Positions 1,184 through 21,311 of a DNA stretch of 22,818 bases are shown here, piece by piece. The translations under genes were made by a program, and so were the position numbers. The notes below the pieces were generated by a model, which saw only the letters and a program-made list of their open reading frames with translations, searched no databases and had not been told where the DNA came from. Numbering within the stretch: the first letter of the stretch is position 1; the number at the start of each line of letters is the position of its first letter. The DNA is taken from the IMG/VR virus record IMGVR_UViG_3300020129_000442, positions 1 to 22,818 of that record; one strand, 5' to 3'. This DNA is from a virus.

Positions 1184-1390
1184 ATGGCCAAGTACAGGTA
1201 CGAGGGGCCGCAGCCGGACGTCGATGACGCCGGCGAGCTGGTCCACCCGGGCGATGTCCGGGAGTTCGGCTCCGAGCCGGATTGCCCTCCGTGGGTGCCG
1301 CTCGAGGAGGAGGCGCCCGCGCCGCCTCCGCCGGATCCCCCGAAGGCGCCAGCGACCACGCCCGCCACGGGCACTGAGGGAGGCATGTGA
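1184..1390 (+). CDS. Small acidic, proline-rich phage protein
   Basis: 68 residues, starting with ATG right after the stop of the upstream gene. The N-terminus reads MAKYRYEGPQPDVDDAG. The C-terminal third is Pro/Ala/Glu-rich (EEEAPAPPPPDPPKAP) and probably disordered. The motif 'VHPGDVREF' is reminiscent of the small proteins in tail operons whose cores carry a short beta-sandwich. No enzymatic motif is seen. The stop codon overlaps the major tail protein start (TGATG), so the two are translationally coupled, and a structural or assembly role is likely. I do not recognise a named family. Confidence 0.6.
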   Translation: MAKYRYEGPQPDVDDAGELVHPGDVREFGSEPDCPPWVPLEEEAPAPPPPDPPKAPATTPATGTEGGM

Positions 1391-2676
1391 TGGCACCCCC
1401 CACGACCTTTTCGCCCGTCGCCGAGAGGGAAATCTACCTGGCCCGCGAGCTGGTGCCCGGCACCATCCCCGCGACGGTCGGCTTCCCCTGGCCGGTGACG
1501 AGCTTCAAGCCGTCCAACAAGCCCATGTGGATCAACGACGAGTCGTTCCAGGGCAGCATGGGCGACAACTTCGGCGTCTACCAGGGACCGCTGATCGCCG
1601 GGTGGGACGCGGGCGGCCACGTGTTCGCCGACGTCTTCCCCCTGCTGTGCTGGTCCATCCTGGGCGACTACACGGCCAGCGGGACGGCGGCGTCGCCCGC
1701 CGGCACGACCAGCGCCCCCGTCTCCGCGGGCGCGACCAACCTGACGGTCGCCTCCGGCGGCGCGAGCTTCACCGCGGGCATGTTCGTGTGGATCGAGGAC
1801 GCGGGCACCCCGGCCGCCAACGAGGTCGTCAAGATCGGCGCCGGGTCGACGTCGACCAACGTGGTCCTCGACGCGACGACCCCGACGCGGTTCGCGCACC
1901 TGACCGCGACGCCGTTCACCAACACGACCGCCCCGTACACCCACGTGTTCGCGCTCCTCAACGGCAGCACGGGCGCGCTGGCCGGCCCGGGTCAGCCGCC
2001 GACGCTGTGCGCCACCAACCGCAACGGCATCGCCGCCAACGGCGCCGAGCAGTACGCCTACAGCTGCCTGTCCGAGCTGACGCTGACGGGGAACGCCGAG
2101 AAGCTGCTCGACTTCACCGCCAAGGCGGTCTGCATGTCCCGGCAGACGGCGGCCGCGCCGGTCGGGTTCGCGAACATCTCATCCGAGCTGGCCACCCCGT
2201 CATGGCGCACCGCGGCCGGGATCGGCGGCATCGCCAGCGGCGGCACCCAGGTCAAGTCGATCGCCGAGCACACCGTCACGCTGTCCCGCGCCGTCAAGGC
2301 GTACAACACCGAGCAGGGGTCGCAGGCCCCGTTCGTCATCGCGCGGGGCAAGCAGGGCAACACGGGGAAGATGGTCGTCTCCCCGGCGATCGACGACTCC
2401 ACCCTGATCGCCTTGCTGGCCAACAGCCAGCCGCAGCTCCAGTTCGTCACCGACAACGGCCTGGCGGGCGCGAGTCACCGCCTGGTCCAGGCGGACATCC
2501 TGCTGGCCGCCTACGACACCGACGACGAGAACGACGGGTCGGAGCTGTTCGGGTTCGACGTGTCGTTCAGGGCCGTCCACACCGCCGCCAGCTCGGGCGG
2601 CATCACCACGACCGGCGCCTCTGGCGGCAAGGGCGCGGTCAAGATCACGGTGGTCAATGCCACCCCGACGTATTAG
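1390..2676 (+). CDS. Major tail (tube) protein
   Basis: 428 residues from ATG 1390. A GTG at 1387 is also in frame, but GAGGGAGG at 1376-1383 is better spaced for the ATG. Position identifies it: after the terminator-like gene and directly before the tail assembly chaperones and tape measure. N-terminal residues 'REIYLARELVPGTIPATVGFPWPV' and a central 'WDAGGHVFADVFPLLCWSILGDY' resemble actinobacteriophage major tail proteins. A Gly/Ser/Thr-rich beta insertion spans about residues 105-180. The C-terminus 'SFRAVHTAASSGGITTTGASGG' is flexible and ends in a strand. It would polymerise as rings around the tape measure to form the tail tube. Confidence 0.75.
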   Translation: MAPPTTFSPVAEREIYLARELVPGTIPATVGFPWPVTSFKPSNKPMWINDESFQGSMGDNFGVYQGPLIAGWDAGGHVFADVFPLLCWSILGDYTASGTAASPAGTTSAPVSAGATNLTVASGGASFTAGMFVWIEDAGTPAANEVVKIGAGSTSTNVVLDATTPTRFAHLTATPFTNTTAPYTHVFALLNGSTGALAGPGQPPTLCATNRNGIAANGAEQYAYSCLSELTLTGNAEKLLDFTAKAVCMSRQTAAAPVGFANISSELATPSWRTAAGIGGIASGGTQVKSIAEHTVTLSRAVKAYNTEQGSQAPFVIARGKQGNTGKMVVSPAIDDSTLIALLANSQPQLQFVTDNGLAGASHRLVQADILLAAYDTDDENDGSELFGFDVSFRAVHTAASSGGITTTGASGGKGAVKITVVNATPTY

Positions 2677-2684
2677 GAGCAGCG

Positions 2685-2984
2685 GTGCGCACTGACCTGC
2701 AGTCCGGCGCGTGGATCGAGCACGTGCCCGTCCAGGCGCTCACCTACGGGCACAAGCGGGCGCTGGAGCGGTCCGTGCGCCTGGTGGTCCCGGAGGGAGC
2801 GGTCGACGAGGAGTTCAACCTCGACGTCGCCGCGCTCACCGCGGGCCTGGACATGAACGCCATGAAGGCCGCCCGCGAGGAGGGCCTGTGGGCGCTGCTG
2901 ATCACCGCCTGGTCCTACGACATGCCCGTGCCGGAGCTGGACAAGGCCAGCGGCATCGTCACCGGCGGCGCGTCGCTGGACTAG
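2685..2984 (+). CDS. Tail assembly chaperone, upstream (gpG-like) frame, ending at an amber codon
   Basis: 99 residues from GTG 2685, with GGAGCAG at 2676-2682 as a modest ribosome site. Lying between the major tail protein and the tape measure is the hallmark of tail assembly chaperones, which coat the tape measure before tube polymerisation. The protein is mainly helical and acidic with no catalytic motif ('LDVAALTAGLDMNAMKAAREEG', 'SYDMPVPELDKASGIVTGG'). The frame ends at TAG 2982-2984. However, the same frame stays coding-like beyond it (VPIDDAEEITAILAPHAAK, then RRPDPK) up to a classical slippery site at 3059. The natural upstream product was probably longer, ending at TGA 3129-3131. The amber codon may be a mutation or a recoded stop. 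Confidence 0.7.
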   Translation: MRTDLQSGAWIEHVPVQALTYGHKRALERSVRLVVPEGAVDEEFNLDVAALTAGLDMNAMKAAREEGLWALLITAWSYDMPVPELDKASGIVTGGASLD

Positions 2985-3289
2985 GTCCCGATCGACGACG
3001 CCGAGGAGATCACGGCGATCCTCGCCCCCCACGCGGCCAAGCTCGCCCGGCGGCCGGACCCAAAAAGCTCGACTACCTCAAGCTCAAATGGCTCGTCTCC
3101 GGCAAGGGCAGGCGGCTCCCGGAGGGGCTGAGCCGGCAGGCCTATGAGGACATCCTCCACGTCATCCGCTTCGGCCTGCTGCCCGGCGAGGACAGGGGCC
3201 GGGACGGGCTGCCGGTGGAGGTGGGCACCTGGCTGATGCCGGTGCAGATGGCGATCGACCAGGCGCAGAGGGAGGCGAGCAAGGGATGA
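2985..3289 (+). CDS. Tail assembly chaperone downstream (gpT-like) extension, needs -1 frameshift
   Basis: After the amber codon the original frame stays open and coding-like to the slippery site C CCA AAA. In the -1 frame the protein continues KKLDYLKLKWLVSGKG and ends 'MPVQMAIDQAQREASKG' at TGA 3287-3289. No ATG, GTG or TTG lies in either frame between 2985 and the slippery site, so this part cannot start on its own in the usual way. With the amber read as sense and one slip, the fusion would be 201 residues, typical for a G-T type chaperone. The stop overlaps the next gene's ATG by four bases. Either the long form needs amber bypass or the gene is damaged. Confidence 0.6.
3059..3065 (+). 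promoter_or_regulatory. Programmed -1 ribosomal frameshift heptamer CCCAAAA
   Basis: In the upstream frame the codons read gaC CCA AAA, an exact X XXY YYZ heptamer with X=C, Y=A, Z=A. Slipping back one base re-pairs both tRNAs (CCC, AAA) and enters the frame that encodes the chaperone extension. It lies where siphophages place the G/GT frameshift. A possible 6-bp stem lies downstream (3113-3118 with 3130-3135), but it is distant and weak as a stimulator. Confidence 0.75.
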
Positions 3290-3753
3290 CCCCGGCTGAG
3301 CTTCCCGGCCGCCTGCGCCGCCTCGCCCGCGACGTCCGGGACCGCGCCGCGCTCGACGCCGCCGGCGCCATGGCGCAGGCGTACCAGCGCAGCGTGGTCA
3401 AGAGCATGCGCGGCCCGTCACCGTCCCCCGCCGGGACGCCCCCGGCGCGCCGCACGGGCACCCTGGCCCGGTCGGTGCGACCCGAGCCGGCCGTCCCCGC
3501 GGGCGCCTGCCGGGCCACCTCGAGCGTCGCCCCGCACGCGGTGTACGCGCGGATCCAGCAGAAGGGCGGCGTCATCGTCCCGGTCCGCGCGAAGGTGCTC
3601 CGCTGGAAGGAGGGCAAGCGCTACCGGTACGCCAGGCGCGTGGTGCTGCCCGCGCGGCCGTACATGGTGATGACCGGCGCCAGGCGCCAGGAGTGCCATG
3701 ACGCCGCCGTCGCCGCGGCCCGCCGGGTGATCCGGGAGGCCCTCAGTGGATGA
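3286..3753 (+). CDS. HK97 gp10-like / virion morphogenesis protein
   Basis: 155 residues from ATG 3286, four-base overlap with the chaperone stop. The sequence has a helical, Arg-rich N-terminus ('GRLRRLARDVRDRAALDAAG'). It then has a 'GTLARSV' segment, 'HAVYARIQQKGGVIVP' and 'VVLPARPYMVMTG'. The pattern of 'R...S', 'YA..Q..GG' and 'PARP' is what I associate with HK97-gp10-like and P2 gpS-like tail completion proteins. These sit at the head-tail junction. Its placement between the chaperones and the tape measure, rather than upstream of the major tail gene, is less usual. Length fits the family. Confidence 0.6.
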   Translation: MTPAELPGRLRRLARDVRDRAALDAAGAMAQAYQRSVVKSMRGPSPSPAGTPPARRTGTLARSVRPEPAVPAGACRATSSVAPHAVYARIQQKGGVIVPVRAKVLRWKEGKRYRYARRVVLPARPYMVMTGARRQECHDAAVAAARRVIREALSG

Positions 3754-6214
3754 GCTGGAGGACGTAAGGCAGCAGTTCATCGCCGACGTCGGCGCCTACG
3801 TCGAGGACGTCCAGCTGGCGGCCGAGGAGGCCCGCGGGTTCGCCGAGAGCGCCCGGGCGGCGAAGGACGAGGCGGACGGGCTGCGCGACGGCCTGTCCGA
3901 GGCCGCCGTCGCGGCCGGGATCTACCGCGACGAGATGGGCCGCCTGCGCGACGCCCAGGGCAGGTTCGCGTCCGCCGCCTCGGTGGCTGCGACCGAGATG
4001 GGCCACGTCCGCGACGAGGCCGCCGCGGCCGCCGTCTCGGTGAAGGAGCTGGGCAAGCAGGCCGACGAGACCGCCGCCAAGCTCGACCTGATGGGCCTGT
4101 CCGGCGCGTCCACGTTCACCAGCCTCGGCGGGCTCATCGGCCTCATCGGCGGCCTGGTCGTCGTCGGCGCCGGGGTCGCGCCCGCGTTCCTCGCCGCCGG
4201 CGCCGGGATCGGCGCATTCGGGGCGCTGGCCCTCCCCACCCTGCAGAACGTCTTCTCCGCCGTCCAGCAGGTCAGCAAGGCCCAGTCGGTACTGAACAGC
4301 GCCACCTCCACCGCCAAGCAGCGCGCCACCGCCCTGCAGCAGGAGAAGGCCATCTGGGCGTCCCTGCCCGCCCCCATCGCCATGGTCGTCACCGAGGTGA
4401 TGAACCTCAAGGCCCAGTGGCAGGACCTCGGCAAGCAGTTCCAGATGCCCGTCGTCCAGGACCTGTCCCAGGTCATCGGGATCGTCTCGGACCTGCTGCC
4501 GAAGATCGTCCCGCTGGCGACGGCCGGCGCCGGGGCGGTCCACATGCTGCTGTCCGCCCTGGGCACCAGCGTCGGCTCGTCCGGGTTCACCCAGTTCCTG
4601 CAGCTCCTGACGAACTTCGTCGGCCCCGCCACGCAGGCGATCATGCACCTGGCGGGCGCCCTCACCCACATCCTGGGCAGCGCGATCGAGACCCTGATGG
4701 GCAACGCGCCGCCGCTGATCAACTTCCTGGCCGACCTGGTCACCGCGCTCGGCGGCCCGCTGGTGACCGCCATCCACTTCGTCGTCGACCTGCTGGTCAA
4801 CCTGCTCGGCGCCATCGACCCGCTGCTGCCCGGCCTGTCGCAGATCGCGACCCTGCTCGTCACCGACATCGGCACCTCGTTCGAGGCCCTGATCCCGGTC
4901 CTGTCCCAGGTCATCCAGCTGATCGGCGGCTCCCTGATCACCATCTTGCAGGAGCTGGAGCCTGTGATCGCGAACGCCCTGACCCCGAACGGGCCGTTCA
5001 TGGCGGCGCTGGCCATGCTGCCAAGGCTGCTGCAGGCGATCCTGCCCCTGTTCACCGGCCTGGCGTCGGTCCTGAAGAACCCCATGTGGGCGTCGCTGGC
5101 CGTCGACGTCCTGTCCGGCATCGTCGCCCTCAAGGCCGTCATCGGCATCATCTCCCTGGTGCGCGGGGCGTTCATCGCGCTCACCGCGGTGATGGAGATA
5201 AACCCGTTCATCCTGATCGCCACCGTCATCGCCGCCCTCGTGGTCGCGTTCATCGAGCTGTGGAACCACTCGGCGGCATTCCGTAACTTCTGGATCGGCC
5301 TGTGGCATGACATCCTCGCCGCCGCCGCCCCCGCGATCGCGTTCGTGAAGCAGGAAATCGGGATCCTCACCACCTGGTGGAATGCCCACTGGACGGAGAT
5401 CCGCGAGGTCGCCCGCATCGCGTGGGCGCTGATCAGCGGCTACGTGACGACCTACGTGAAGGTCGTGATGATCGAGATAAAGCTCGCCCTGGAGCTGATC
5501 TCGATCATCTGGCGGATCGCCTGGGGGGAGATCCGAGACCTGTTCCTGCTGGTGTGGAACGTGATGCGGGCCGCGGTCACCGCGTTCACCCGGGTAATCC
5601 TCGACATCGTCGCGATCTTCCTCGACGTGATCACCGGGCACTGGTCCAAGGCGTGGCACGACATCCAGAAGCTGTTCCACGATTACGTCAACGGCATCGT
5701 GTCGATCGCGCGGGCGTTCGGCTCCGGCCTGGTCCGGTTCTTCGTGGACCTCGGCCACAACATCATCCAGGGGCTGATCAGCGGCATCAAGGACATGGCC
5801 GGGGCGGTGTTCGGGGTGCTGGGCACCATCGCCCACGGCATCAGCTCGACCTTCAGCTCCGTGCTGCACATCCTGTCGCCGTCGCGGGTGTTCTACGAGC
5901 ACGGCCGCAATACGCTGCTCGGCTACATCCAGGGCATCGCCGCGGTGGCGCCGCAGGTGCAGGCGGCGCTCGCCGCGGTAGGCGGCCACGTGGCGATGGG
6001 CGGCCTGCCAGGGATCGCCGTGGCGGGCGCGGCCGGGGCGGCCGGCTTCGCCAGCGGCCACCTGAACGTCACGGTGACGGTCGCCCCGGGGGCGGGGAAC
6101 ATGGCCGATGCCCGGTGGCTGCAGTGGCTGCAGCAGGCCTTCCAGGAGGCTGCGCTCCGGTATAACCTGAACAACCCGAATAACGGGCTGGCGTTCGGCG
6201 CCGGGCGCGTCTGA
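3746..6214 (+). CDS. Tail tape measure protein
   Basis: 822 residues from GTG 3746, with GGAGG at 3735-3739 as ribosome site and an 8-bp overlap with the upstream gene. Residues 1-120 are Ala/Glu/Arg-rich and coiled-coil-like. They are followed by strongly hydrophobic segments (about 127-170 and again about 450-510) typical of tape measures, which are ejected and cross the membrane. The motif 'SPSRVFYEHGRNTLLGYIQG' near residue 710 is a hallmark of phage tape measures. At about 1.5 angstrom per residue, the length predicts a tail near 120 nm, a moderate siphovirus tail. No peptidase or lysozyme motif was seen. It works with the chaperones upstream and the minor tail proteins downstream. Confidence 0.9.
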   Translation: MDELEDVRQQFIADVGAYVEDVQLAAEEARGFAESARAAKDEADGLRDGLSEAAVAAGIYRDEMGRLRDAQGRFASAASVAATEMGHVRDEAAAAAVSVKELGKQADETAAKLDLMGLSGASTFTSLGGLIGLIGGLVVVGAGVAPAFLAAGAGIGAFGALALPTLQNVFSAVQQVSKAQSVLNSATSTAKQRATALQQEKAIWASLPAPIAMVVTEVMNLKAQWQDLGKQFQMPVVQDLSQVIGIVSDLLPKIVPLATAGAGAVHMLLSALGTSVGSSGFTQFLQLLTNFVGPATQAIMHLAGALTHILGSAIETLMGNAPPLINFLADLVTALGGPLVTAIHFVVDLLVNLLGAIDPLLPGLSQIATLLVTDIGTSFEALIPVLSQVIQLIGGSLITILQELEPVIANALTPNGPFMAALAMLPRLLQAILPLFTGLASVLKNPMWASLAVDVLSGIVALKAVIGIISLVRGAFIALTAVMEINPFILIATVIAALVVAFIELWNHSAAFRNFWIGLWHDILAAAAPAIAFVKQEIGILTTWWNAHWTEIREVARIAWALISGYVTTYVKVVMIEIKLALELISIIWRIAWGEIRDLFLLVWNVMRAAVTAFTRVILDIVAIFLDVITGHWSKAWHDIQKLFHDYVNGIVSIARAFGSGLVRFFVDLGHNIIQGLISGIKDMAGAVFGVLGTIAHGISSTFSSVLHILSPSRVFYEHGRNTLLGYIQGIAAVAPQVQAALAAVGGHVAMGGLPGIAVAGAAGAAGFASGHLNVTVTVAPGAGNMADARWLQWLQQAFQEAALRYNLNNPNNGLAFGAGRV

Positions 6215-9200: not shown

Positions 9201-9675
9201 GACCGCGACGACCACCGTGGCGGCGATGGTGGCGGCCAGCGAGGCACAGTACGGCGACCAGCCGTACCAGCAGACCGCCTACCTGCAGAACGACGGCAAC
9301 GCCGCCTACAACGCCGGCTCCGGGCTGACGGACCTGGCGGCGTGGATCGCGATGGTGTACGGCAAGCCCCGCAACCGGGTGCCGGGCGTCACGGTGAACG
9401 CCGCGGCGTACCCGGCGGCGTGGCAGCTGTTCACCCGCGCGGCGGTGGGCGACATGGTGCAGGTCAACGTGCGGCTGCCGACCGCGGCGGCGTCGCCGCT
9501 GGTGTCGGTGATCGCCCGGGTGACGCAGACGGCCAGGTCGATGAAGTGGGACACCGACTCGCCGCCTGTCGCGTCGATCGCGCTGACGCTGGACGCGGCC
9601 CCGGAGTACAACGCCCTGACCTGCGATGACGCGACCCGGGGGCTACTTAACGGGGTGAACGTCCTTGCGTGGTAG
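6214..9675 (+). CDS. Large minor tail protein with LamG-like domain and nested beta insert
   Basis: 1153 residues; the ATG overlaps the tape measure stop (TGATG), and it is the first gene after it. Residues 1-230 form a beta-rich module ('DDVHNWWEPAGAPN', 'VYDVAGLGPGW'). Residues about 230-520 contain 'LQAAQGTITLDDPDGALIPP' and a jelly-roll-like carbohydrate-binding stretch. Residues about 530-880 look like a concanavalin/LamG fold ('DGPYALWPLGDQAG', 'TLECWAQG', 'YRVLVNGG', 'GYLALAGVWPGMLAQVRVVAHFWG'), interrupted at about 648-722 by a separate repeat-like domain. The C-terminus ('QLFTRAAVGDMVQVNVRLP') resembles baseplate hub or adhesion proteins. It probably forms the tail tip and host contact. 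Residue 20 is encoded by TTA (6271-6273), rare in high-GC actinobacteria. Confidence 0.8.
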   Translation: MVSIAGTWTGGYAQPTGFFLPRSATGPVQVSVANVTGDWMIAVIALRPPAPAAACSVCVSDDVHNWWEPAGAPNADIAAPATVRTVIWAAPAARAASSVQVTPTGPYTSLAVAVYDVAGLGPGWLPSLIGQAHASPATSLTVPGGSVAAQSLVLAILAAGETGGTITPPAGWTALTGSTISGGGTAAGDITVSAAYQVITGSVPSAAWSSSVSCALAGTTGAVAVAAPVPSLQSPDWPAVITEAAIGAGPQSSPALMTWTDLSARSLALQVQQGRQYTLSQLQAAQGTITLDDPDGALIPPGTGGFAGIDSGTPLRRRCYWPGGAWQVQFSGNGSSSSPQLQSSGSQVPVTPGVTYTAPVWLACSAPYASGVHSGIVWRNSGGGVISTVTSAASATGPAPVLAIASGIAPAGAVTADVLIGASGTPPASTVFTAAAGPYVTGQVTAPPGVSWVAQNGAAATTLAAWQPDPRGAPDPSPWSVPFAGFFRRWPFTTAADLLRGQVTAEVSDIWAYATGSLDSIAREELLTDGPYALWPLGDQAGAAAGSNIAPGNSSPLTLVTSKMGAGSATAAFGATPPGGGLLGDNSAKTGANGMFRQVVPASGEGVNGFGYALGCYDSGFPAISAGVTLECWAQGTVNQNTTGNGFGAVTTGSLFTVTGSSFPNGTPVVLTAAGGFTFPGGFTAGTVYYVISANGASFQLAATGGGSAITVTGNGSGFLQTTTSWNPVVISARNVKGPVVELNVRNTDGALQLLYATASGARTTLVIDTSLDYRNTALWHASVAFSATTYRVLVNGGATATASGSFSAALPAFFDEVWCGGILDRQVTGFTFPGYLALAGVWPGMLAQVRVVAHFWGAHAGMKLDPAHERLDRVLGYAGIAGRRWIGQQSVTYETDILASGQDIGGQSAAASAGNVAASTVPALLYIAPTGDISYAAKAYQWNNAVDWVLGDSTAAGEIPFSLTSFSTDYDPARLYNDVQLTQLDSQSVTVPAGSTATTTVAAMVAASEAQYGDQPYQQTAYLQNDGNAAYNAGSGLTDLAAWIAMVYGKPRNRVPGVTVNAAAYPAAWQLFTRAAVGDMVQVNVRLPTAAASPLVSVIARVTQTARSMKWDTDSPPVASIALTLDAAPEYNALTCDDATRGLLNGVNVLAW

Positions 9676-10126
9676 AAGGCGGGATCACGTCGCGCAGCGG
9701 CTTCCACGGCGGCAGCTCCGGCGGTTCGGGCAGCACCATGTCATAGGGAGCGACCTGCGCGCCCTCCATGGTGAGCGGCACCAGCGAGCAGCGGCACTTC
9801 CGGTTCAGTACCGGGCGCTCGCCTCCCAGTGCGGCAAGCAGGCCGTAGTCCTCGCCGCTCTCGATCGTCCGCCGCAGCCCGTCAAGCTCTCGGTCGGCCT
9901 CATCGAACGCGCGCCCCATGGCGGCCACCGCCTCAGCCTGGACCTGCTCGCTGACAAGCTCAACCGCACGGTCGATGACGGCGTCGATGTCGGCCTTGAA
10001 CTCCGCCAGGATCTCGCGGACGCCCTCGACGATCTCCTGCTTGGCGTACGGCCCCTCGCTGGCGTTCTCGCCCCAGTTCAGCTCAACGCGCCGCATGATC
10101 TCGTCGAGGAACTCCTTCGCGCTCAT
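9647..10126 (-). CDS. Leftward moron-like gene between tail genes, function unknown
   Basis: 159 residues, transcribed against all flanking structural genes; its 3' end overlaps the minor tail gene by 29 bp. The ATG at 10126 has GAGG a few bases upstream, leaving only 26 bp before the next rightward gene, so its promoter must lie inside that gene. The protein starts MSAKEFLDEIMRRVELNWG and has a long acidic helix-rich middle ('GVREILAEFKADIDAVIDRA', 'ELVSEQVQAEAVAAMG') suited to coiled coils. A basic Cys pair (RKCRCSL) and a Pro-rich tail 'PEPPELPPWKPLRDVIPP' follow. I do not recognise the family. The orientation suggests expression in the prophage state, for example lysogenic conversion or superinfection exclusion, but that is inference. 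Confidence 0.65.
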   Translation of the reverse strand: MSAKEFLDEIMRRVELNWGENASEGPYAKQEIVEGVREILAEFKADIDAVIDRAVELVSEQVQAEAVAAMGRAFDEADRELDGLRRTIESGEDYGLLAALGGERPVLNRKCRCSLVPLTMEGAQVAPYDMVLPEPPELPPWKPLRDVIPPSTTQGRSPR

Positions 10127-14556: not shown

Positions 14557-16620
14557 CTAACTCACCTCCCTGCGGGCCAGCGCCGAGCGCAGGTCAGCCG
14601 GGTCAAGGCGCGGAACGTTGCCCGTGTTCGTCCACCGCACGTCCTCGGCGTCGAGCCGGGCGGCCAGCTCCTTGCCGGTCAGCTGCCGGTACTCGCCCCA
14701 CGACGGCGCCAGCTTCCGCAGCCGCGCCGGGAGGTCCGCCAGGCGAACCGGCTCGCCGTCATCCCTGGTCACCTCGGCCAGGTCCGCCAGCAGGTCCCGC
14801 TGCTCGATCATCGGCAGGCCGCTGCCGGGCAGCTCCCGGCCCTTGCGCGCCATCTCCGCCAGCGCCCGGTTCACCAGCGGCGTCACCTGGTCGTCGTCGC
14901 TGCGCACGTTCAGCCGGTGCACCTGCACCATCTCCGACCGCTCGCCGGAGAAGCCCTTGCACAGGGCCGTCCCGCGGTCCACTCCCGGGATGAGCTCCGT
15001 CGCCCGGTGCCCGGCCCGGTACGCGCCCTGGCCGAGCAGCGCGTCATTCGCCACGTGGTCGCCGACGGCGTGCGCGATGCCCACCGTGCAGTTCCGCGTC
15101 ACGTCCCGCGGCATGGAGTCCTTCGTCGGGGCCTGCGTGGAGACCATCACGTGCACGGCGCGCTTGCGGTCCAGCCTGACCACGTCGCACAGCAGCCCCG
15201 AGATTTCCTTGCCGTGCCTGTGGTGCTGGATCGCGACGTGGGCCTCCTCTAGCAGCCAGAAGACCGGGTGCAGGCCCACCCCGGCGTGCGCGAGCTCGCG
15301 GGTGACCTCCTGCTGCTCGTGGTCGATGAGCAGCTGGCCGCGCCGCTGGATCTCGTCCTTCAGCTCCTCCAGCTCGCGCAGGATGCGCTCCATGTGCTCG
15401 TCCTCGGCGCCCATGACGTAGCGGGAGCAGCGCCGCTTGAACGGCTCGAAGTCAAAGTTGGTGTCCGGGACGAATATCCGCAGCTCAGTGATGATGTCCA
15501 GCGCGTACCCGGCCGCCACGATGCGGGCGCTGTTGCTCTTGCCCTGCTCCGGGGCGCCGCCGCAGATGCTGTTGCGGCCGATGGCCGGGAAGCGCACCGG
15601 GTCGCCGCGCAGCGTCCGCCCGAACGGCAGGCCGCGGAACACGTCGGTGAAGCCGCCCTCGGCCAGCGGGTACGGCCCGGCGCCCTCAGCCAGCGCGCCC
15701 TTGTCGGCCACCCACAGCTTCAGGTGGGACGCGTCGGCGCCGGTTGACGGCCACACCTCGGTAGGCAGCCGGTACAGGCCTGAGGCCAGCTTGGCGCGGC
15801 GCCTGGCCACCTCCTCCGCGGTGACTCCCTTCGGCAGCCGCACCTCGGCGTACGTGCCGCGGCCCTCCTGCCGGGGCGGCACGATGTAGGGCATCGGCAG
15901 GCCGTCCTTGAGGTAGTCGGCGATCAGCTTCAGGCCGAGCACCGCCAGGGCCTGCGTGACGGCCCGCTCGTCTATGCTGATGTCGGCGTCGGAGTCGGCC
16001 GAGACGGCCGTCCACGACGGCGCCATGCTGCCGCCGGTCCGGCCCAGCTGCCACAGCCCGGCCACGACGGCCAGCGGGGCGGCGAACGTGGCCACCGTCA
16101 GCGCCACTGAGACGACCTCGGCGACCAGGGCGATGGCGTGCGCCGCCCAGGCGTACGGGGTGACGACGTCGAGCAGGTCGTGATGGTCGAACGCCAGCGC
16201 CAGCCCGAGCAGGCCCGGGGCGACGGCCGAGCAGGCGAGGACGGCCAGGCCGCCCTTGATGATGACCGGGATCAGCTCGACGAGCGCCCGGCGCCGCTCA
16301 TGGCGCTGCTTGCGCTCCAGCTCGGCGTGCTGCTGCCAGGCCAGCATCGCCTCATGGTTGCCCTGCGCCTCCAGCGCCCGCAGCGTCCGCTCGTGCCGGG
16401 TGCGCCGGTGGCGCCAGCGGCGCCAGGCGACGACCGCCCCGGCCGCCACATAGCCGGCGTGGCGCAAAGCGGCTGGAACTGTCCGGGATCGTCCAGGATC
16501 GTCTAGCCGGGCGGCGGCCACCCCGGTCGCCGTGGCCGCCGCCTCGTCTACCACCTCGCCGTCCAGCACCAGCGGCTCAACCGCGGCGGCCGGGACGGCG
16601 GGCAGGTTCGTCTCAGGCAC
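14557..16620 (-). CDS. FtsK/SpoIIIE-type (TraB-like) DNA translocase
   Basis: 687 residues. Residues 1-110 are cytoplasmic with a basic Arg/Trp stretch. Membrane helices follow at about 119-144 and 157-190. The motor domain has Walker A GGAPEQGKSNSARI (G355-K361-S362) and Walker B 'VFWLLEEAH' (453-461), with a sensor-like 'HVMVSTQAPTKDSMPRDV'. The C-terminal 60 residues ('LTGKELAARLDAEDVRWTNT') may be a winged-helix DNA-reading domain. TraB proteins of Streptomyces plasmids and integrative elements share this plan and move double-stranded DNA between hyphae. The start overlaps the DUF2637 gene by 8 bp. In a phage, alternative roles are plasmid-like spread, partition or packaging help. Host FtsK is excluded by size and context. 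Confidence 0.85.
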   Translation of the reverse strand: MPETNLPAVPAAAVEPLVLDGEVVDEAAATATGVAAARLDDPGRSRTVPAALRHAGYVAAGAVVAWRRWRHRRTRHERTLRALEAQGNHEAMLAWQQHAELERKQRHERRRALVELIPVIIKGGLAVLACSAVAPGLLGLALAFDHHDLLDVVTPYAWAAHAIALVAEVVSVALTVATFAAPLAVVAGLWQLGRTGGSMAPSWTAVSADSDADISIDERAVTQALAVLGLKLIADYLKDGLPMPYIVPPRQEGRGTYAEVRLPKGVTAEEVARRRAKLASGLYRLPTEVWPSTGADASHLKLWVADKGALAEGAGPYPLAEGGFTDVFRGLPFGRTLRGDPVRFPAIGRNSICGGAPEQGKSNSARIVAAGYALDIITELRIFVPDTNFDFEPFKRRCSRYVMGAEDEHMERILRELEELKDEIQRRGQLLIDHEQQEVTRELAHAGVGLHPVFWLLEEAHVAIQHHRHGKEISGLLCDVVRLDRKRAVHVMVSTQAPTKDSMPRDVTRNCTVGIAHAVGDHVANDALLGQGAYRAGHRATELIPGVDRGTALCKGFSGERSEMVQVHRLNVRSDDDQVTPLVNRALAEMARKGRELPGSGLPMIEQRDLLADLAEVTRDDGEPVRLADLPARLRKLAPSWGEYRQLTGKELAARLDAEDVRWTNTGNVPRLDPADLRSALARREVS

Positions 16621-17335
16621 CCGGCGCGCTCCCGTTCAGCGACGGCTCCGCAACCGGCTCCGCCAGCGCCTGGCGGACCTTATGACGGGTCACGCCGAAC
16701 CGGTCGGCGAGCGCCTCTTCCCCGTACTGCTCGCCCTCGTCCCGCAGCCGCACGCGGGCCAGCGGGAGCGCCTCCGCCAGCGACGCCGGCGGCGGCGGGC
16801 ACGAGCAGTTGAGCGCCGGTTGAGGATCCTCCCCGCGCGCCACCCTGCGCACCTCGCCCAGCAGCCAGAACGCCACGGCGGACATGAGCACGACGGCCAC
16901 GCCGGACGACGCCGACACGGCCGGGCCGAGCCAGGCGACGCGGACGTCGGAGTAGTAGTTCGCGGCGATCGTCGCCGCTATGCCGGCCAGCATCACGCCT
17001 CCCGGTTGCCATAGCCGGCGCAGCCCGCGGACGCCGTACATCGCGGCCCACAGCAGCGCCGCCCCGGCGACGAAGATCATGCCGTCGAGGGTGAAGGGAA
17101 CCAGCGCGGCGACCCAGCGCACTTGCCCGTTGGCGCGGGCGAGGACGTACTCGTGCTCGTAGCTGACGGCGGAGGTGATGCACATCCCGGCGCCGACTAC
17201 GGAGAAGATGACGGCGAGGAAGACTTGCTCGGCCGGCCAGCGGCGCGGCGCCCGGTCGGCGCGGTTGCGCGGCGGTTGCGCGGCGGCTGACGGCTGACTA
17301 CTTCCGGCGCTGGCGACACTGCCGTTAAGGTTCAT
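16613..17335 (-). CDS. DUF2637 membrane protein (plasmid spread type)
   Basis: 240 residues from ATG 17335 with GAGG a few bases upstream; an upstream extension to 17485 lacks a comparable site. A disordered, Arg/Pro-rich N-terminus (1-35) is followed by four likely membrane helices (about 36-57, 75-97, 112-126, 137-160). A cytoplasmic tail carries an HTH-like segment 'EEALADRFGVTRHKVRQALA' (206-225). DUF2637 proteins are typically encoded beside FtsK/TraB-like genes in actinobacterial plasmids and integrative elements, where they are thought to help intermycelial spread. The gene is co-directional and overlaps its FtsK-like partner. The tail helix could bind DNA or contact the pump. Confidence 0.75.
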   Translation of the reverse strand: MNLNGSVASAGSSQPSAAAQPPRNRADRAPRRWPAEQVFLAVIFSVVGAGMCITSAVSYEHEYVLARANGQVRWVAALVPFTLDGMIFVAGAALLWAAMYGVRGLRRLWQPGGVMLAGIAATIAANYYSDVRVAWLGPAVSASSGVAVVLMSAVAFWLLGEVRRVARGEDPQPALNCSCPPPPASLAEALPLARVRLRDEGEQYGEEALADRFGVTRHKVRQALAEPVAEPSLNGSAPGA

Positions 17336-17432
17336 TCGGGCCTCAGTCCTTGGTAGCTCAAGGGGTGGGGTGGGCCGGTTCCGACCGGTCCCGGGCCGGG
17401 TGGCTGTTGACGCAGCCGCCTGGCCCGCTTCT

Positions 17433-17462
17433 GTTATATGGGGGCAGACTACATCCTGTCTC
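17433..17462 (-). promoter_or_regulatory. Candidate leftward promoter for the DUF2637-FtsK operon
   Basis: On the reverse strand GAGACA (17457-17462) and TATAAC (17433-17438) are separated by 18 bp; the -10 matches TATAAT in five of six bases. It lies about 100 bp upstream of the DUF2637 start, in the divergent gap with the GntR gene. Confidence 0.45.
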
Positions 17463-17470
17463 CATACAGC

Positions 17471-17498
17471 ACCAGGCAGGATCATGCAGGACCAGGCA
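17471..17498. repeat. ACCAGGCA direct repeats, two helical turns apart
   Basis: ACCAGGCA occurs at 17471-17478 and 17491-17498, start to start 20 bp, between the leftward promoter candidate and the GntR gene. The spacing places both copies on one DNA face, as expected for a regulator site. Binding by the adjacent GntR protein is inference. Confidence 0.4.
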
Positions 17499-17522
17499 TA
17501 CGCGAGCGTTTAGAGTGGTCAC

Positions 17523-17828
17523 GTGCTGTCTACGGTGATCACCATGACTGAAGAGGACGGGCAGGCACCGGAGGATGACCAGGCCCCGATCGTCCCGCGC
17601 GGCTACGACCTCGCCTATGAGGTGGTCGCCAGGCGGCTGGAGAGGCGCATCAAGGCGGGAGAGTGGGGCTATCACATGCCGCTGCCGTCCGAGCCGGCGC
17701 TGTCGGAGTGGTACGGCGTCTCGCGGACGACGATCCGGTCAGCGGCCCGGCTGCTGGAGGAACGGGGACTGGTGGAGGTCATCAGCGGCCGCGGCACGTA
17801 CGTCGCGTGGCGCCCGGATGCCAGCTAG
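17523..17828 (+). CDS. Small GntR-family transcriptional regulator (KorSA-like)
   Basis: 101 residues from GTG 17523, or 94 from ATG 17544. A TAGAGT -10-like box at 17511-17516 would place the transcript start at or near the GTG, allowing leaderless translation. After an acidic N-terminus comes the whole GntR winged helix: 'AYEVVARRLERRIKAGEWGY', 'MPLPSEPALSEWYGVSRTTI' and 'RSAARLLEERGLVEVISGRG'. The protein stops right after the wing, with no effector domain. Such short GntR proteins control transfer genes in Streptomyces plasmids and integrative elements (KorSA type), and here it is divergent from the TraB/DUF2637 pair. A palindrome GGTGATCACC (17534-17543) inside its 5' end may serve in self-control. 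Confidence 0.85.
   Translation: MLSTVITMTEEDGQAPEDDQAPIVPRGYDLAYEVVARRLERRIKAGEWGYHMPLPSEPALSEWYGVSRTTIRSAARLLEERGLVEVISGRGTYVAWRPDAS
17534..17543. promoter_or_regulatory. Perfect palindrome GGTGATCACC at the GntR start
   Basis: A 10-bp perfect palindrome directly before the internal ATG (17544) of the GntR gene. It could be a self-repression site; GntR proteins bind short palindromes. Chance cannot be excluded. Confidence 0.35.
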
Positions 17829-17848
17829 CGCGCCAGCCCACACGTCGG

Positions 17849-17862
17849 ACGTTCGCGAACGT
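17849..17862. promoter_or_regulatory. Operator-like palindrome ACGTTCGCGAACGT
   Basis: A perfect 14-bp palindrome 21 bp after the GntR stop codon. Its core recurs near 17915, 18641, 20985 and 21056, at promoters on both sides of the att site. Probably bound by an element-encoded repressor, with the XRE protein the best candidate. The gap 17829-17945 contains no gene; it holds this palindrome, the arm-like repeat at 17880-17889 and a promoter-like site. Confidence 0.6.
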
Positions 17863-17914
17863 CTTGGGTCGGTTTTCCGTTCGGGAAACGGGCCGTCAGG
17901 AGCGTGGTACCATG

Positions 17915-17936
17915 TACGCGAACGTCTGCGTACTAT
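17915..17936 (+). promoter_or_regulatory. Operator-promoter pointing into the att site
   Basis: TACGCGAACGT (17915-17925) is followed by a TACTAT -10-like box (17931-17936). The 19-mer 17918-17936 matches the excisionase promoter region 21052-21070 in 16 of 19 positions. The -35 is weak. A transcript from here would cross the tRNA fragment and meet the hairpin terminator. Confidence 0.45.
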
Positions 17937-17945
17937 GCGTACGTA

Positions 17946-17993
17946 GCACTCGTAATGCGTAGGTCATCGGTTCGATTCCGATAGGCGGCTCCA
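17946..17993 (+). other. attP-type core: 3' part of a tRNA-Thr(CGU) gene
   Basis: The segment holds anticodon loop CTCGTAA (17949-17955, anticodon CGT), a complete T-arm (ATCGG / TTCGATT / CCGAT, 17966-17982), 3' acceptor strand AGGCGGC (17983-17989), discriminator T and CCA. Nothing upstream supplies the 5' acceptor strand (GCCGCCT expected) or a D-arm, so this is not a functional tRNA gene. It is the identity segment by which an integrating element restores the host tRNA. Phage-type genes and shared operators flank both sides, so an attP state is favoured over a chromosomal attR. Confidence 0.8.
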
Positions 17994-17998
17994 GGCCA

Positions 17999-18031
17999 GG
18001 GCCGGTTTCCCGAAACCGGCCCTTTGTATTT
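17999..18031 (+). terminator. Rho-independent terminator after the tRNA fragment
   Basis: GGGCCGGTTTC pairs with GAAACCGGCCC (17999-18009 with 18012-18022; tight centre, about 10 effective pairs), followed by TTTGTATTT. It would stop tRNA transcription in the integrated state and insulate the downstream gene in the attP state. Confidence 0.85.
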
Positions 18032-18073
18032 GCCAGCCACGGTGCCAGCCAAGAGGGTCAGAAAGGGCGCGTC

Positions 18074-18628
18074 ATGGCGAGCGTTTATGACACATGGCAC
18101 CAGGCGAAGGTGAACGGCGCGGAAGTCTGCAAAGACCACGGCCAGGTGCCGTCCGCCCGGCATGGCAGCGGCAAGCGCTGGCAGGTCCGCTGGCGCGACG
18201 GCGGCCATCAGCGGAACGCGAAATTCGACAAGCGCGCCGACGCCGAGCGCCACCTTAAGCAGCTCGGCGGAGCGTGGTGCATCGTGCCCAAGTGCGACAG
18301 CTCCGCGGCAACAGAGCCGCCCGTCCTGCTGTGCGCCGATCACCGGGACCTGCTGCTGGCCCAGCTCGGGCGCAAGCGCCCGAGCGTGCATGACCCACTC
18401 GTCTACTTCATCCGGAACGGGACGCGCATCAAGATCGGATGGACGACCAACCTAAAGGCGCGCCTGTCATCGCTGGCGCTTCCCGCGACCGCAGTGGCGC
18501 TGACGGTGGCCGGCGGCCCGGAGCAGGAGGCGATCCTGCATCAGCGGTTCGCTCGTGCCCGGGTCGGCCGCACGGAGTGGTTTGAGGCGGCTCCTGAGAT
18601 AGAGGCATTCATCGTCTCCCGCACCTAA
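18074..18628 (+). CDS. Integrase-type N-terminal domain fused to T5orf172/GIY-YIG domain
   Basis: 184 residues from ATG 18074 with GAAAGGG six bases upstream. Residues 1-65 ('MASVYDTWHQ', 'CKDHGQVPSARHGSGKRWQV', 'RWRDGGHQRNAKFDKRADAE') match the N-terminal arm-binding part of pSAM2-type tyrosine integrases. A zinc-like cluster follows (C69, C74, C87, H90). Instead of a catalytic recombinase domain, residues 107-180 form a T5orf172 domain: 'VYFIRNGTRIKIGWTTNLKA' then 'QEAILHQRFARARVGRTEWF', with Y111, K120-IG, R130, E152, H156. This family is a GIY-YIG relative, presumably a nuclease. The gene occupies the place next to att where integrases usually start. It may bind att DNA and nick it, or act in exclusion; the role is unknown. 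Confidence 0.75.
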   Translation: MASVYDTWHQAKVNGAEVCKDHGQVPSARHGSGKRWQVRWRDGGHQRNAKFDKRADAERHLKQLGGAWCIVPKCDSSAATEPPVLLCADHRDLLLAQLGRKRPSVHDPLVYFIRNGTRIKIGWTTNLKARLSSLALPATAVALTVAGGPEQEAILHQRFARARVGRTEWFEAAPEIEAFIVSRT

Positions 18629-18640
18629 GGGAATCCGTGT

Positions 18641-18668
18641 ACGTCCGCGTAATCCGTCGCAGTACACT
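18641..18668 (+). promoter_or_regulatory. Operator-like site and -10 box upstream of the MmpS-like gene
   Basis: ACGTCCGCGTA (18641-18651) differs by one base from the operator at 21056-21066. A TACACT -10-like box (18663-18668) follows. The -35 region is weak. A leaderless ATG at 18678 is possible, but the better ribosome site favours 18717. Confidence 0.45.
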
Positions 18669-18716
18669 CCGCGTCATATGAGCGTTACGGACAACGCCAG
18701 ACAAGGGGAACAGATC

Positions 18717-19163
18717 ATGGCCGGCAGGCAGCCTCAGCAACCCTCGCCCCAGCAGCGGCCCCCGGCGGTGCAGCCCCGTCGCCGCCGGGGCGCAGTCATC
18801 CTCGGCATAGGCGCCGTCATCTGCGCCGCCATCGTCGCCGCCGCGATAGCGCATGACCGCAGCCAGCAGCCAGCATCCACGGTCACGTTCGTGACCACCG
18901 GCTCGCCTGCCGACGTCACCTGGGGCGATGCCGGCAGCAGCGCCAAGGGCGCCGTCCCGATGCGCGAGACGATCCCCATCGGCAACCCGCTGTACTACTC
19001 CCTCAACGTCCAGCTCAACGGCGACGGCAGCGCCTCCTGCCAGATCCTCATCGGCGGCACGGTCATCTCGCAGGCCACCGCCACCGGCGGCTACACCATC
19101 GCCAGGTGCCAGGTCAGCAAGGACGCCTCCGGCCAGTGGCGGGACGACACCAGCGGCGGTTAG
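18717..19163 (+). CDS. MmpS-like single-pass membrane protein
   Basis: 148 residues from ATG 18717, chosen because AAGGGG lies just upstream; ATG 18678 is a longer in-frame alternative. A Gln/Pro/Arg-rich cytoplasmic N-terminus is followed by one membrane helix ('GAVILGIGAVICAAIVAAAI', about residues 25-45). The extracytoplasmic beta domain reads 'STVTFVTTGSPADVTWGDAG', 'PLYYSLNVQLNGDGSASCQI' and 'GGYTIARCQVSKDASGQW'. Strand pattern and Cys pair fit the MmpS family, known in mycobacteria as partners of MmpL exporters. Mobile elements of actinobacteria often carry stand-alone versions. No MmpL gene is present here, so a cell-surface or exclusion role is possible. It converges on the integrase. 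Confidence 0.7.
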   Translation: MAGRQPQQPSPQQRPPAVQPRRRRGAVILGIGAVICAAIVAAAIAHDRSQQPASTVTFVTTGSPADVTWGDAGSSAKGAVPMRETIPIGNPLYYSLNVQLNGDGSASCQILIGGTVISQATATGGYTIARCQVSKDASGQWRDDTSGG

Positions 19164-19169
19164 CCGCCG
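19154..19169. terminator. Hairpin CGGCGG-TTAG-CCGCCG at convergent stops
   Basis: A perfect 6-bp GC stem with loop TTAG. The loop holds the TAG of the MmpS-like gene on one strand and the TAA of the integrase on the other. No U-tract is present, so it may only weakly terminate, but it works symmetrically for both convergent transcripts. Confidence 0.5.
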
Positions 19170-20296
19170 AACCGCGCGTCCAGCCGGGACACTACCCGCG
19201 CGTGCATCACCGGCCGCACGTGCGTGTAGATCTCGGCCATCGCCGCCGTCGACCAGCCCATCAGGTCCTGGACCACGCGCGGGTCCTCCCCCGCCTCCAG
19301 CTGCTCCGTCGCGTAGGCGTGCCGCAGGTCATGCACCCGGTAGCGCGGCAGCCCGGCCGACGCCAGCAGGTCCTGCCAGTCCTGCCAGTCATCCCGCGAG
19401 TGCACCGGCTCCCCGTTCGGCCGGGTGAACACCAGCCCGCGGATATCGGCTACCGGCTGCCGCTCGAAGTGCGCCGCCAGCGCCCGCGCGCCGATCGCGG
19501 GCAGGGGCACGGTACGGCGGGACTTCCGCGACTTCGGGTCCTTCCACACCCACTCCCCGGCGATCCGGGACTGCGGCTTGCGCACCGTCACCGACGCGGG
19601 AGCCGCCAGCCGCACGTCTGTGCGGCGCATGCCGAGCGCCTCGCCCTGCCGCAGGCCCGTCGTGATCGCCAGCACCCACCGCGCCCCATTCGGCCACGCC
19701 TCGCACGCCGCGAGCACCATGTCCAGCTCGGCCGCCGACGGCGGCTCGGGCAGCTGCCGCTCCGCGCGCGGCGGCGTGACGATGCTGGCCGGGTTGTACG
19801 GCATCCGCTTGCGGCGCACCGCCTCATTCAGGCAGCTGGACAGTATGCGGTGCGCCGTGACGATCGTGGACGGCGAGATCGTGCCGCCGCGCCGCGAGGG
19901 CCGCTCCAGCATCGCCGCGTGCCAGTCCTCGATATCCTCCGCGGACAGCTCCGCCAGCGGCACCCGCTGGAAAAACGGGGCGATGTAGTCCTCGCATTTC
20001 TGCCGGTACGACCGGTACCAGGTGTTCGGGTCAACCTTCGCCCTGGCTGTGTTGTGACACCAGTGCAGCACCCATTCCGACACGGTCGGCTGCCGCCCGC
20101 GGGGCAGCGTGAAGCCGTCCCGGCGGCGGCCAAGGAACGCGGCCCGCTTCTCCAGCGCGGCATCCGGCGTCGGGCCGGTGAACTCCCGCCGGTCCCGCTT
20201 CCCGCCCTTCCATCCCAGGTCGGCGACCGCCACCCACTGGTTACGGGACGTCCGGTGGTAGAGGCTCCCCTCGCCGTGCTGCCTCCGCCCTGGCAC
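19160..20296 (-). CDS. int: Tyrosine recombinase/phage integrase
   Basis: 378 residues from GTG 20296 with GGGAGGAAG six bases upstream. The N-terminus ('GEGSLYHRTSRNQWVAVADL') fits an AP2-like arm-binding domain. A SAM-like core-binding domain spans about 68-165 ('TVSEWVLHWCHN'). The catalytic domain is complete: R216 in 'TTGLRQGEALGMR', a Lys in 'KDPKSRKSRRTVPLP' near 254, H322-x-x-R325 in 'VHDLRHAYAT', W348 in 'GWSTAAM' and the nucleophile Y357 in 'AEIYTHV'. It catalyses site-specific recombination, very probably at the tRNA-Thr segment about 1.2 kb away. The MmpS-like gene and the T5orf172 fusion gene lie between int and att, an unusual spacing. It overlaps the small membrane gene by 56 bp. 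Confidence 0.95.
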   Translation of the reverse strand: MPGRRQHGEGSLYHRTSRNQWVAVADLGWKGGKRDRREFTGPTPDAALEKRAAFLGRRRDGFTLPRGRQPTVSEWVLHWCHNTARAKVDPNTWYRSYRQKCEDYIAPFFQRVPLAELSAEDIEDWHAAMLERPSRRGGTISPSTIVTAHRILSSCLNEAVRRKRMPYNPASIVTPPRAERQLPEPPSAAELDMVLAACEAWPNGARWVLAITTGLRQGEALGMRRTDVRLAAPASVTVRKPQSRIAGEWVWKDPKSRKSRRTVPLPAIGARALAAHFERQPVADIRGLVFTRPNGEPVHSRDDWQDWQDLLASAGLPRYRVHDLRHAYATEQLEAGEDPRVVQDLMGWSTAAMAEIYTHVRPVMHARVVSRLDARFGG

Positions 20297-20408
20297 CCTG
20301 CTTCCTCCCGATCATGCGCCCGGCCCGGTAACTGGCCCGGACCGGCTCGACTCCCCATCTCAGGTAGGCGCCGGCGACGACTATGGCCCCGGCCCAAAAG
20401 AACTTCAC
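20241..20408 (-). CDS. Tiny membrane protein upstream of the integrase
   Basis: 55 residues if started at GTG 20408, which has GGAGGAG upstream; an ATG at 20432 would add 8 residues. The product reads MKFFWAGAIVVAGAYLRWGV, a membrane helix followed by a basic stretch 'RASYRAGRMIGRKQGARAEA' and a short acidic/proline end. The 56-bp overlap with int suggests coupled expression. Small membrane proteins next to integrases are common in actinobacterial elements, and their role is unclear. No family name recognised. Confidence 0.55.
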   Translation of the reverse strand: MKFFWAGAIVVAGAYLRWGVEPVRASYRAGRMIGRKQGARAEAARRGEPLPPDVP

Positions 20409-20469
20409 CCCTGTTGTCTCCTCCCCTGGCATACAGCGCCAGACAAGGAGAACATACGCTCCTAAGTCA

Positions 20470-20928
20470 CTAACTGACCACAAGCGGGCAAATGTAAATT
20501 AATTCACCTCCGCCACGGAGGGCGCGCAGGTCCTCGGCGATCATCGCCGCCAGCGCGGCGCGCTGGCGCGCGCTGAGGCCGCGGGCCTCGCCTGCGGCGC
20601 GTGCCCCTTCTGCGGCGGCGGCCTCGTCGGCGTCGGCCTGCGCGGCGTGCTCCGCGGCCAGCTCCTCAAGGATCACGGCTGCCTCCGGGTAGCCGTCGTC
20701 CCTGAGCTCGGCGGGGGTCACGCCCACGGCTAGGGCCATCCGGGCGAGGGTGGCGGGCGGCGCGGGCTCGGGGGCGTAGCCGAGCGGGGTGCTGCGGGAG
20801 CCGCTCTCCAGCTGGCGCCATCGCGCCTCGGAGATGCCGGCGGATGCGGCTGCTTGCCTGATGGACTGCTTTCGCCGTTTCTGGATGAGCTGCATCACTG
20901 ACGGCTGGGGCGGGCGTGGCGCGGTCAT
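20470..20928 (-). CDS. XRE (Cro/CI) family repressor candidate
   Basis: 152 residues from ATG 20928 with AAGGAC eight bases upstream. Residues about 12-75 form a Cro/CI helix-turn-helix: 'LIQKRRKQSIRQAAASAGIS', 'EARWRQLESGSRS' and 'LARMALAVGVTPAELRD'. An Ala/Glu-rich helical C-terminus follows, perhaps for dimerisation. It is divergent from the excisionase-like gene across a gap with two copies of the shared operator, so it is the leading candidate for the immunity repressor. One TTA codon (20500-20502) lies near the 3' end; in Streptomyces such codons depend on the bldA tRNA. The last codons are unusually AT-rich. Confidence 0.8.
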   Translation of the reverse strand: MTAPRPPQPSVMQLIQKRRKQSIRQAAASAGISEARWRQLESGSRSTPLGYAPEPAPPATLARMALAVGVTPAELRDDGYPEAAVILEELAAEHAAQADADEAAAAEGARAAGEARGLSARQRAALAAMIAEDLRALRGGGELIYICPLVVS

Positions 20929-20972
20929 GTCCGTCCGTCCTTTGCGGGTTCGTGCTACCCCCTATGCACGCG

Positions 20973-21001
20973 AGGATAACACGCACGTTCGCGAACTTGA
21001 G
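20973..21001 (-). promoter_or_regulatory. Repressor promoter with operator in the spacer
   Basis: Reverse strand: TATCCT (20973-20978) as -10, 17-bp spacer, weak -35 CTCAAG (20996-21001). The palindrome GTTCGCGAAC (20987-20996) sits in the spacer and overlaps the -35 by one base, so a bound repressor would shut off its own gene. Confidence 0.5.
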
Positions 21002-21041
21002 TGACGGCGCAATCCCAATTTCACGTGCCTTCAGGCCAGGG

Positions 21042-21070
21042 TTGCGAAGATGCGAACGTTCGCGTACTCT
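21042..21070 (+). promoter_or_regulatory. Excisionase promoter with operator in the spacer
   Basis: TTGCGA (21042-21047), 17-bp spacer, TACTCT (21065-21070). The perfect palindrome GCGAACGTTCGC (21052-21063) fills the spacer. The expected transcript start falls on or next to the ATG at 21078, so the mRNA is probably leaderless. No Shine-Dalgarno sequence lies before the ATG. Confidence 0.65.
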
Positions 21071-21077
21071 ACTCGGC

Positions 21078-21311
21078 ATGACGAACCCAACCCGCGCCGA
21101 CGCGATGCTCACGAGCGCCGAGGTGATGGAGCAGCTGGGGATCAAGAAGACCGCCTTTTACAAGCTGCTCAACGCCGGAGAGCTGAAGGCGGTCGACGTG
21201 TCCGCCGCGCCGCGCAAGCGCCGCATCGGCGAGCCGGGCAGGCGCCGCACCCTTCGCATCCCCCAGTCGCAAGTCGACGCCTTCAAGGCGCGCAACGCGA
21301 TCACCGCCTGA
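21078..21311 (+). CDS. Excisionase-like MerR/HTH_17 DNA-binding protein
   Basis: 77 residues from ATG 21078. The core 'MLTSAEVMEQLGIKKTAFYK' and 'LLNAGELKAVDV', then 'RRTLRIPQSQVDAFKARN', is the winged-helix pattern shared by phage excisionases and HTH_17 proteins ('sv.eva..LgvskstvyrLi..GeLpa....g..rri...dl..f'). It is divergent from the XRE gene and is the first gene of the rightward early operon. Xis proteins bend att DNA so the integrase can run in reverse. A purely transcriptional role is the alternative. No ribosome site is present; leaderless expression is likely. Confidence 0.8.
   Translation: MTNPTRADAMLTSAEVMEQLGIKKTAFYKLLNAGELKAVDVSAAPRKRRIGEPGRRRTLRIPQSQVDAFKARNAITA

Follow-up and report, generated by a model that had tools for sequence, protein, structure and literature searches.

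A private in-frame TAG codon ahead of the slippery site in a predicted tail assembly chaperone gene of an uncultivated virus

The importance of the G and G-T products for tail assembly is known from two well-described phages. In TP901-1, a stop codon in gpG abolishes tails and leaves capsids alone, and a forced G-T fusion is not infective; therefore, both products and the ratio between them matter (PMC4493119). The ratio of G to GT likewise matters in lambda (PMC5009743). The wider frameshift family of double-stranded DNA tailed phages is that of Xu, Hendrix and Duda (2004), as cited in PMC5009743.

We analyzed a 22,818-base record of an uncultivated virus, referred to here as the window, in which a putative chaperone gene of this kind is interrupted by a stop codon. 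The G-like frame (2685-2984, plus strand, like all features of the locus) opens at GTG 2685, eight bases past the stop of the tail tube gene (2674-2676), and 99 sense codons precede an in-frame TAG at 2982-2984, so that the product is truncated here to 99 aa. Past the TAG, the same frame continues for 25 codons, reading VPIDDAEEITAILAPHAAKLARRPD, and then through CCA AAA. This remainder (2985-3065; VPIDDAEEITAILAPHAAKLARRPDPK) would by rule go untranslated and resembles the corresponding part of the relatives. The heptamer C CCA AAA occupies 3059-3065 and is correctly phased for -1 slippage. Beyond it, the unshifted G frame (3066-3131; SSTTSSSNGSSPARAGGSRRG) terminates at TGA 3129-3131, and relatives are arranged alike, while the -1 frame encodes a T-like part of 75 aa (3062-3289; KKLDYLKLKW...REASKG) that terminates at TGA 3287-3289. 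From 2985 to 3062, the G frame contains no ATG, GTG, or TTG, and in the T frame a usual start first appears at GTG 3215, deep within T. We also considered -1 slippage upstream of the TAG, where the -1 frame is open from 2711, and rejected it, as its product would be low in complexity, Arg rich, and without homologues, and no heptamer lies upstream.

Relatives were reached via the tube protein and then via G and T profiles. The tube protein search yielded eight related viral contigs, each with a chaperone homologue downstream, and the T and G profiles raised this number to 21 distinct IMG/VR contigs, or ~19 independent sequences, given that the pairs L026/L027 and L030/L031 are alike at the chaperone locus. 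A direct search of viral contigs with the 99-aa G fragment gave no match, as did a search of the same contigs with a 36-base pattern across the TAG codon (first base free). Phage sequences searched by DNA and by protein also gave no match, and a search of genome contigs gave no relative.

The architecture of the locus is shared throughout this set. In all 21 relatives, CCCAAAA has this same phase and leads into a T frame in -1, and the heptamer is invariant in the 22 records of the family (window 2685-3289; L018-L035, L041, L054, and L055). Counted from the TAG position to the AAA of the heptamer, the spacing is 28 codons throughout, window included; four records possess a second, overlapping heptamer, and CCCAAAA is still found at the 28-codon distance there. 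Identity of the T-like part is 62-72% to close relatives and 40-43% to the most distant two. To judge from these alignments, the post-stop segment is homologous to the 21 related records, as are the heptamer and T frame, so their presence is not due to chance. An initial annotation, made from the window alone, had described a TAG in the chaperone frame, 25 coding-like codons beyond it, a -1 site at CCCAAAA, and no usual start codon between the two. It was exact in every coordinate.

The TAG itself has no counterpart in the 21 relatives. When the homologues were aligned, as had been proposed for establishing which residue the stop replaces, the codon facing it was GAG in 17 relatives, GAC in 3, and GAA in 1, and so acidic (Glu or Asp) in every case. 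The G frame is open from start to heptamer in 21/21 relatives and broken in this record only. On this alignment, the TAG is private to this record and differs by a single G-to-T change from GAG, the codon commonest in the family.

We assign the gene to the lambda G/GT-type tail assembly chaperone pairs on the basis of gene order, conserved heptamer, and two frames, which agrees with the earlier assignment as a frameshifting tail chaperone, and the conserved anatomy suggests that -1 frameshifting would take place at CCCAAAA. Neither G nor T has a sequence match in Pfam or PHROGs, and the chaperone has none in the PDB. A model of the G part of a relative (mean pLDDT, 87) has no structural match in the PDB. 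Against viral models, Foldseek returned weak matches only, the best being an unnamed phage protein (E value of 1e-3), and the weaker ones include several named tail assembly chaperones. In the model, the codon aligned with the TAG falls just before the last predicted helix of the G domain (residues 102-119 in the relative's numbering), and truncation at this point would remove that helix plus all of T. As a by-product, the analysis thus brings to light a putative frameshifting tail chaperone family of uncultivated high-G+C phages that is absent from Pfam and PHROGs.

The chaperone lies between the tail tube and tape measure genes. The tail tube (major tail) protein gene (1387-2676, plus strand) itself ends in TAG; 429 of its 429 residues are aligned in relatives at 44-89% identity, and its match to Phage_tube_2 is weak (E value of 0.07, below the cut-off). 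Between T and the tape measure gene (3746-6214, plus strand; phrog_58, E value of 9e-31) is a gene for a tail completion or neck-like protein (3286-3753, plus strand; phrog_26, E value of 4e-7).

Several other observations concern the surroundings of the locus. A sharp mosaic boundary is seen when 1387-2676 and 2685-2984 of the window are compared with L058, the tube being 89% identical to that of record G001 and the G part ~42%. Inserted DNA of ~0.35 to 0.85 kb separates tube and chaperone in L006, L007, and L008 (after 5278) and in L003 (after 4045); the insert of L006-L008 contains a small open reading frame (ORF) (MTLVANRDERDPKLIVV...). A minus-strand ORF of the window (9647-10126), whose GC3 is lower (0.86), lies within the block of plus-strand tail genes; the related records that were searched gave no match to it. 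Farther along, 14557-21311 encodes a tyrosine integrase, a GntR-type regulator, a DUF2637 protein, an HTH_17 (excisionase-like) protein, and a 687-aa protein with a Walker-A-like motif (GGAPEQGKSN) and no Pfam match, a mix of genes that we take to resemble that of actinobacterial integrative elements.

It is also important to consider how old the change could be. The post-stop segment scores 3.06 BLOSUM per column against the relatives, whose own range is 2.11-3.93, and its GC3 is 1.00 over 25 codons, with G or C at every third position. Private changes are not in excess in the window's T, neck, and tube genes, and no other interrupted gene was found among window genes with a recognised homologue. 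Because the post-stop segment is undecayed and no other lesion is visible, the change appears to be recent and isolated. Conservation of the post-stop segment is, however, equally expected under functional readthrough, and every relative is at least about 40% divergent in G, leaving no near-identical sister record by which to date the change. Across ~28,000 aligned residues of the relatives' g539, tube, G, T, and tape measure homologues there are no internal stops, and amber codons are thus not habitual in this group. In L057/L033, the neck gene has an in-frame stop that proved to be its natural end, two residues before that of the window. A few of the matches to the 6214 and 10153 genes also contained stops; as no composition correction was applied in those searches, we considered these spurious or paralogous.

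Taken together, these results point to a private nonsense codon in an otherwise ordinary two-frame chaperone gene, arising either as a true inactivating mutation or as a base error of metagenome assembly, a joint reading to which we assign a probability of about 0.92. The odds are about even between a real mutation of a single (pro)phage genome and a wrong assembly base; a literature search on G-to-T sequencing artefacts returned nothing sufficiently specific. In the family, G would be read from 2685 past the TAG position to CCCAAAA, where a fraction of ribosomes would slip into -1 and produce G-T. In this record, reading would halt at residue 99, and therefore neither full G nor G-T would reach its normal level. 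Provided that the TAG is real, the genome would, by analogy with known systems, probably be unable to build tails unless helped.

The headline proposal of the initial annotation was that a few ribosomes read through the amber codon and that a share of those then slip at CCCAAAA, giving a doubly regulated G-T. The conserved, coding-like frame past the TAG and the intact heptamer and T frame are what such a scheme would call for, and if it were true, two recoding events in series would set a very low level of G-T. Programmed readthrough would, however, be expected to conserve the stop codon, which is present in 0/21 relatives. G itself would also be ~48 residues shorter and lose its last predicted helix, and G-T would be the product of two low efficiencies, yet the G:GT ratio matters (PMC4493119, PMC5009743). 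Nor did a search 3' of the slippery site find conserved RNA structure, the result being 9 weak pairs and no compensatory change. We consider this scheme very unlikely. Still less probable is decoding of TAG as an amino acid by the phage or its host, through a suppressor tRNA or an alternative code such as code 15. Gut viromes do contain TAG-recoding phages (PMC9523058, PMC10879173), and the contig lacks the left part of the genome, so that a suppressor may possibly lie there or in the host, although we saw no sign of amber suppression by the host. Against this, TAG terminates about ten other predicted genes of the window (an approximate count, as gene calls in the right half are ORF based), including the tube gene just upstream, whose end coincides with the C-terminal end in relatives, and no other conserved window gene contains an internal TAG. 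ARAGORN found no tRNA in the 22.8-kb window, itself an incomplete contig, or in 15 stretches of 11 related records, and hence no suppressor with anticodon CUA, for which the initial annotation had suggested a search. Since TAG ends about ten genes and no tRNA was found, it is unlikely that TAG is generally decoded as an amino acid; TAG is not avoided as a terminator and placed inside many genes, as in a TAG-recoded genome. In known recoding, moreover, TAG is read as Gln, but the family residue at this position is Glu or Asp.

Alternatively, the chaperone could naturally end at the TAG, with the downstream part translated from its own start by reinitiation. The window does contain a Shine-Dalgarno-like GAGGAG (3003-3008) followed by ATC 3018, but GAGGAG encodes the Glu-Glu of a conserved DD..EEI motif, and the G and T frames lack a usual start over 2985-3062 and before 3215, respectively. 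Relatives whose chaperone ends at this position were looked for, and none of the 21 does so; all have one continuous G frame. We regard reinitiation as no less improbable than recoding. The private nonsense codon accordingly fits two options that the initial annotation had itself listed, a single G-to-T change from GAG to TAG (GAG in 17/21 relatives) and a read error (a sense codon in 21/21). Its gene assignment and these two options stand, and its double event of readthrough followed by frameshifting is unsupported, with the stop absent from the relatives, TAG an ordinary terminator, and no suppressor tRNA found. The apparent double recoding dissolves once relatives are aligned, and this cautions against reading a single metagenome contig as biology.

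Compared with described systems, the locus shares with the code 15 TAG-recoding phages (PMC9523058) an in-frame TAG in a structural gene. Unlike in those phages, the internal TAG of the window is single and at a Glu/Asp position, and TAG is elsewhere an ordinary terminator, with no suppressor tRNA found. The gpG::Ter mutant of TP901-1 is a closer parallel, in that a stop within gpG prevents both gpG and gpGT (PMC4493119). The TP901-1 stop is a laboratory construct with a demonstrated loss of tails, whereas the stop in the window is known from a metagenome contig alone. Compared with lambda G/GT, the G and T of the window are without Pfam or PHROGs sequence matches, and the structure matches are weak, several of them bearing the name tail assembly chaperone. 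Like lambda, however, the window has the order tail tube, G/T, one gene, and tape measure; two overlapping frames, the second in -1; and an X XXY YYZ heptamer near the end of G that is conserved across its relatives. A further difference from the lambda G/GT family is the stop before the heptamer, and this occurs in the present record alone.
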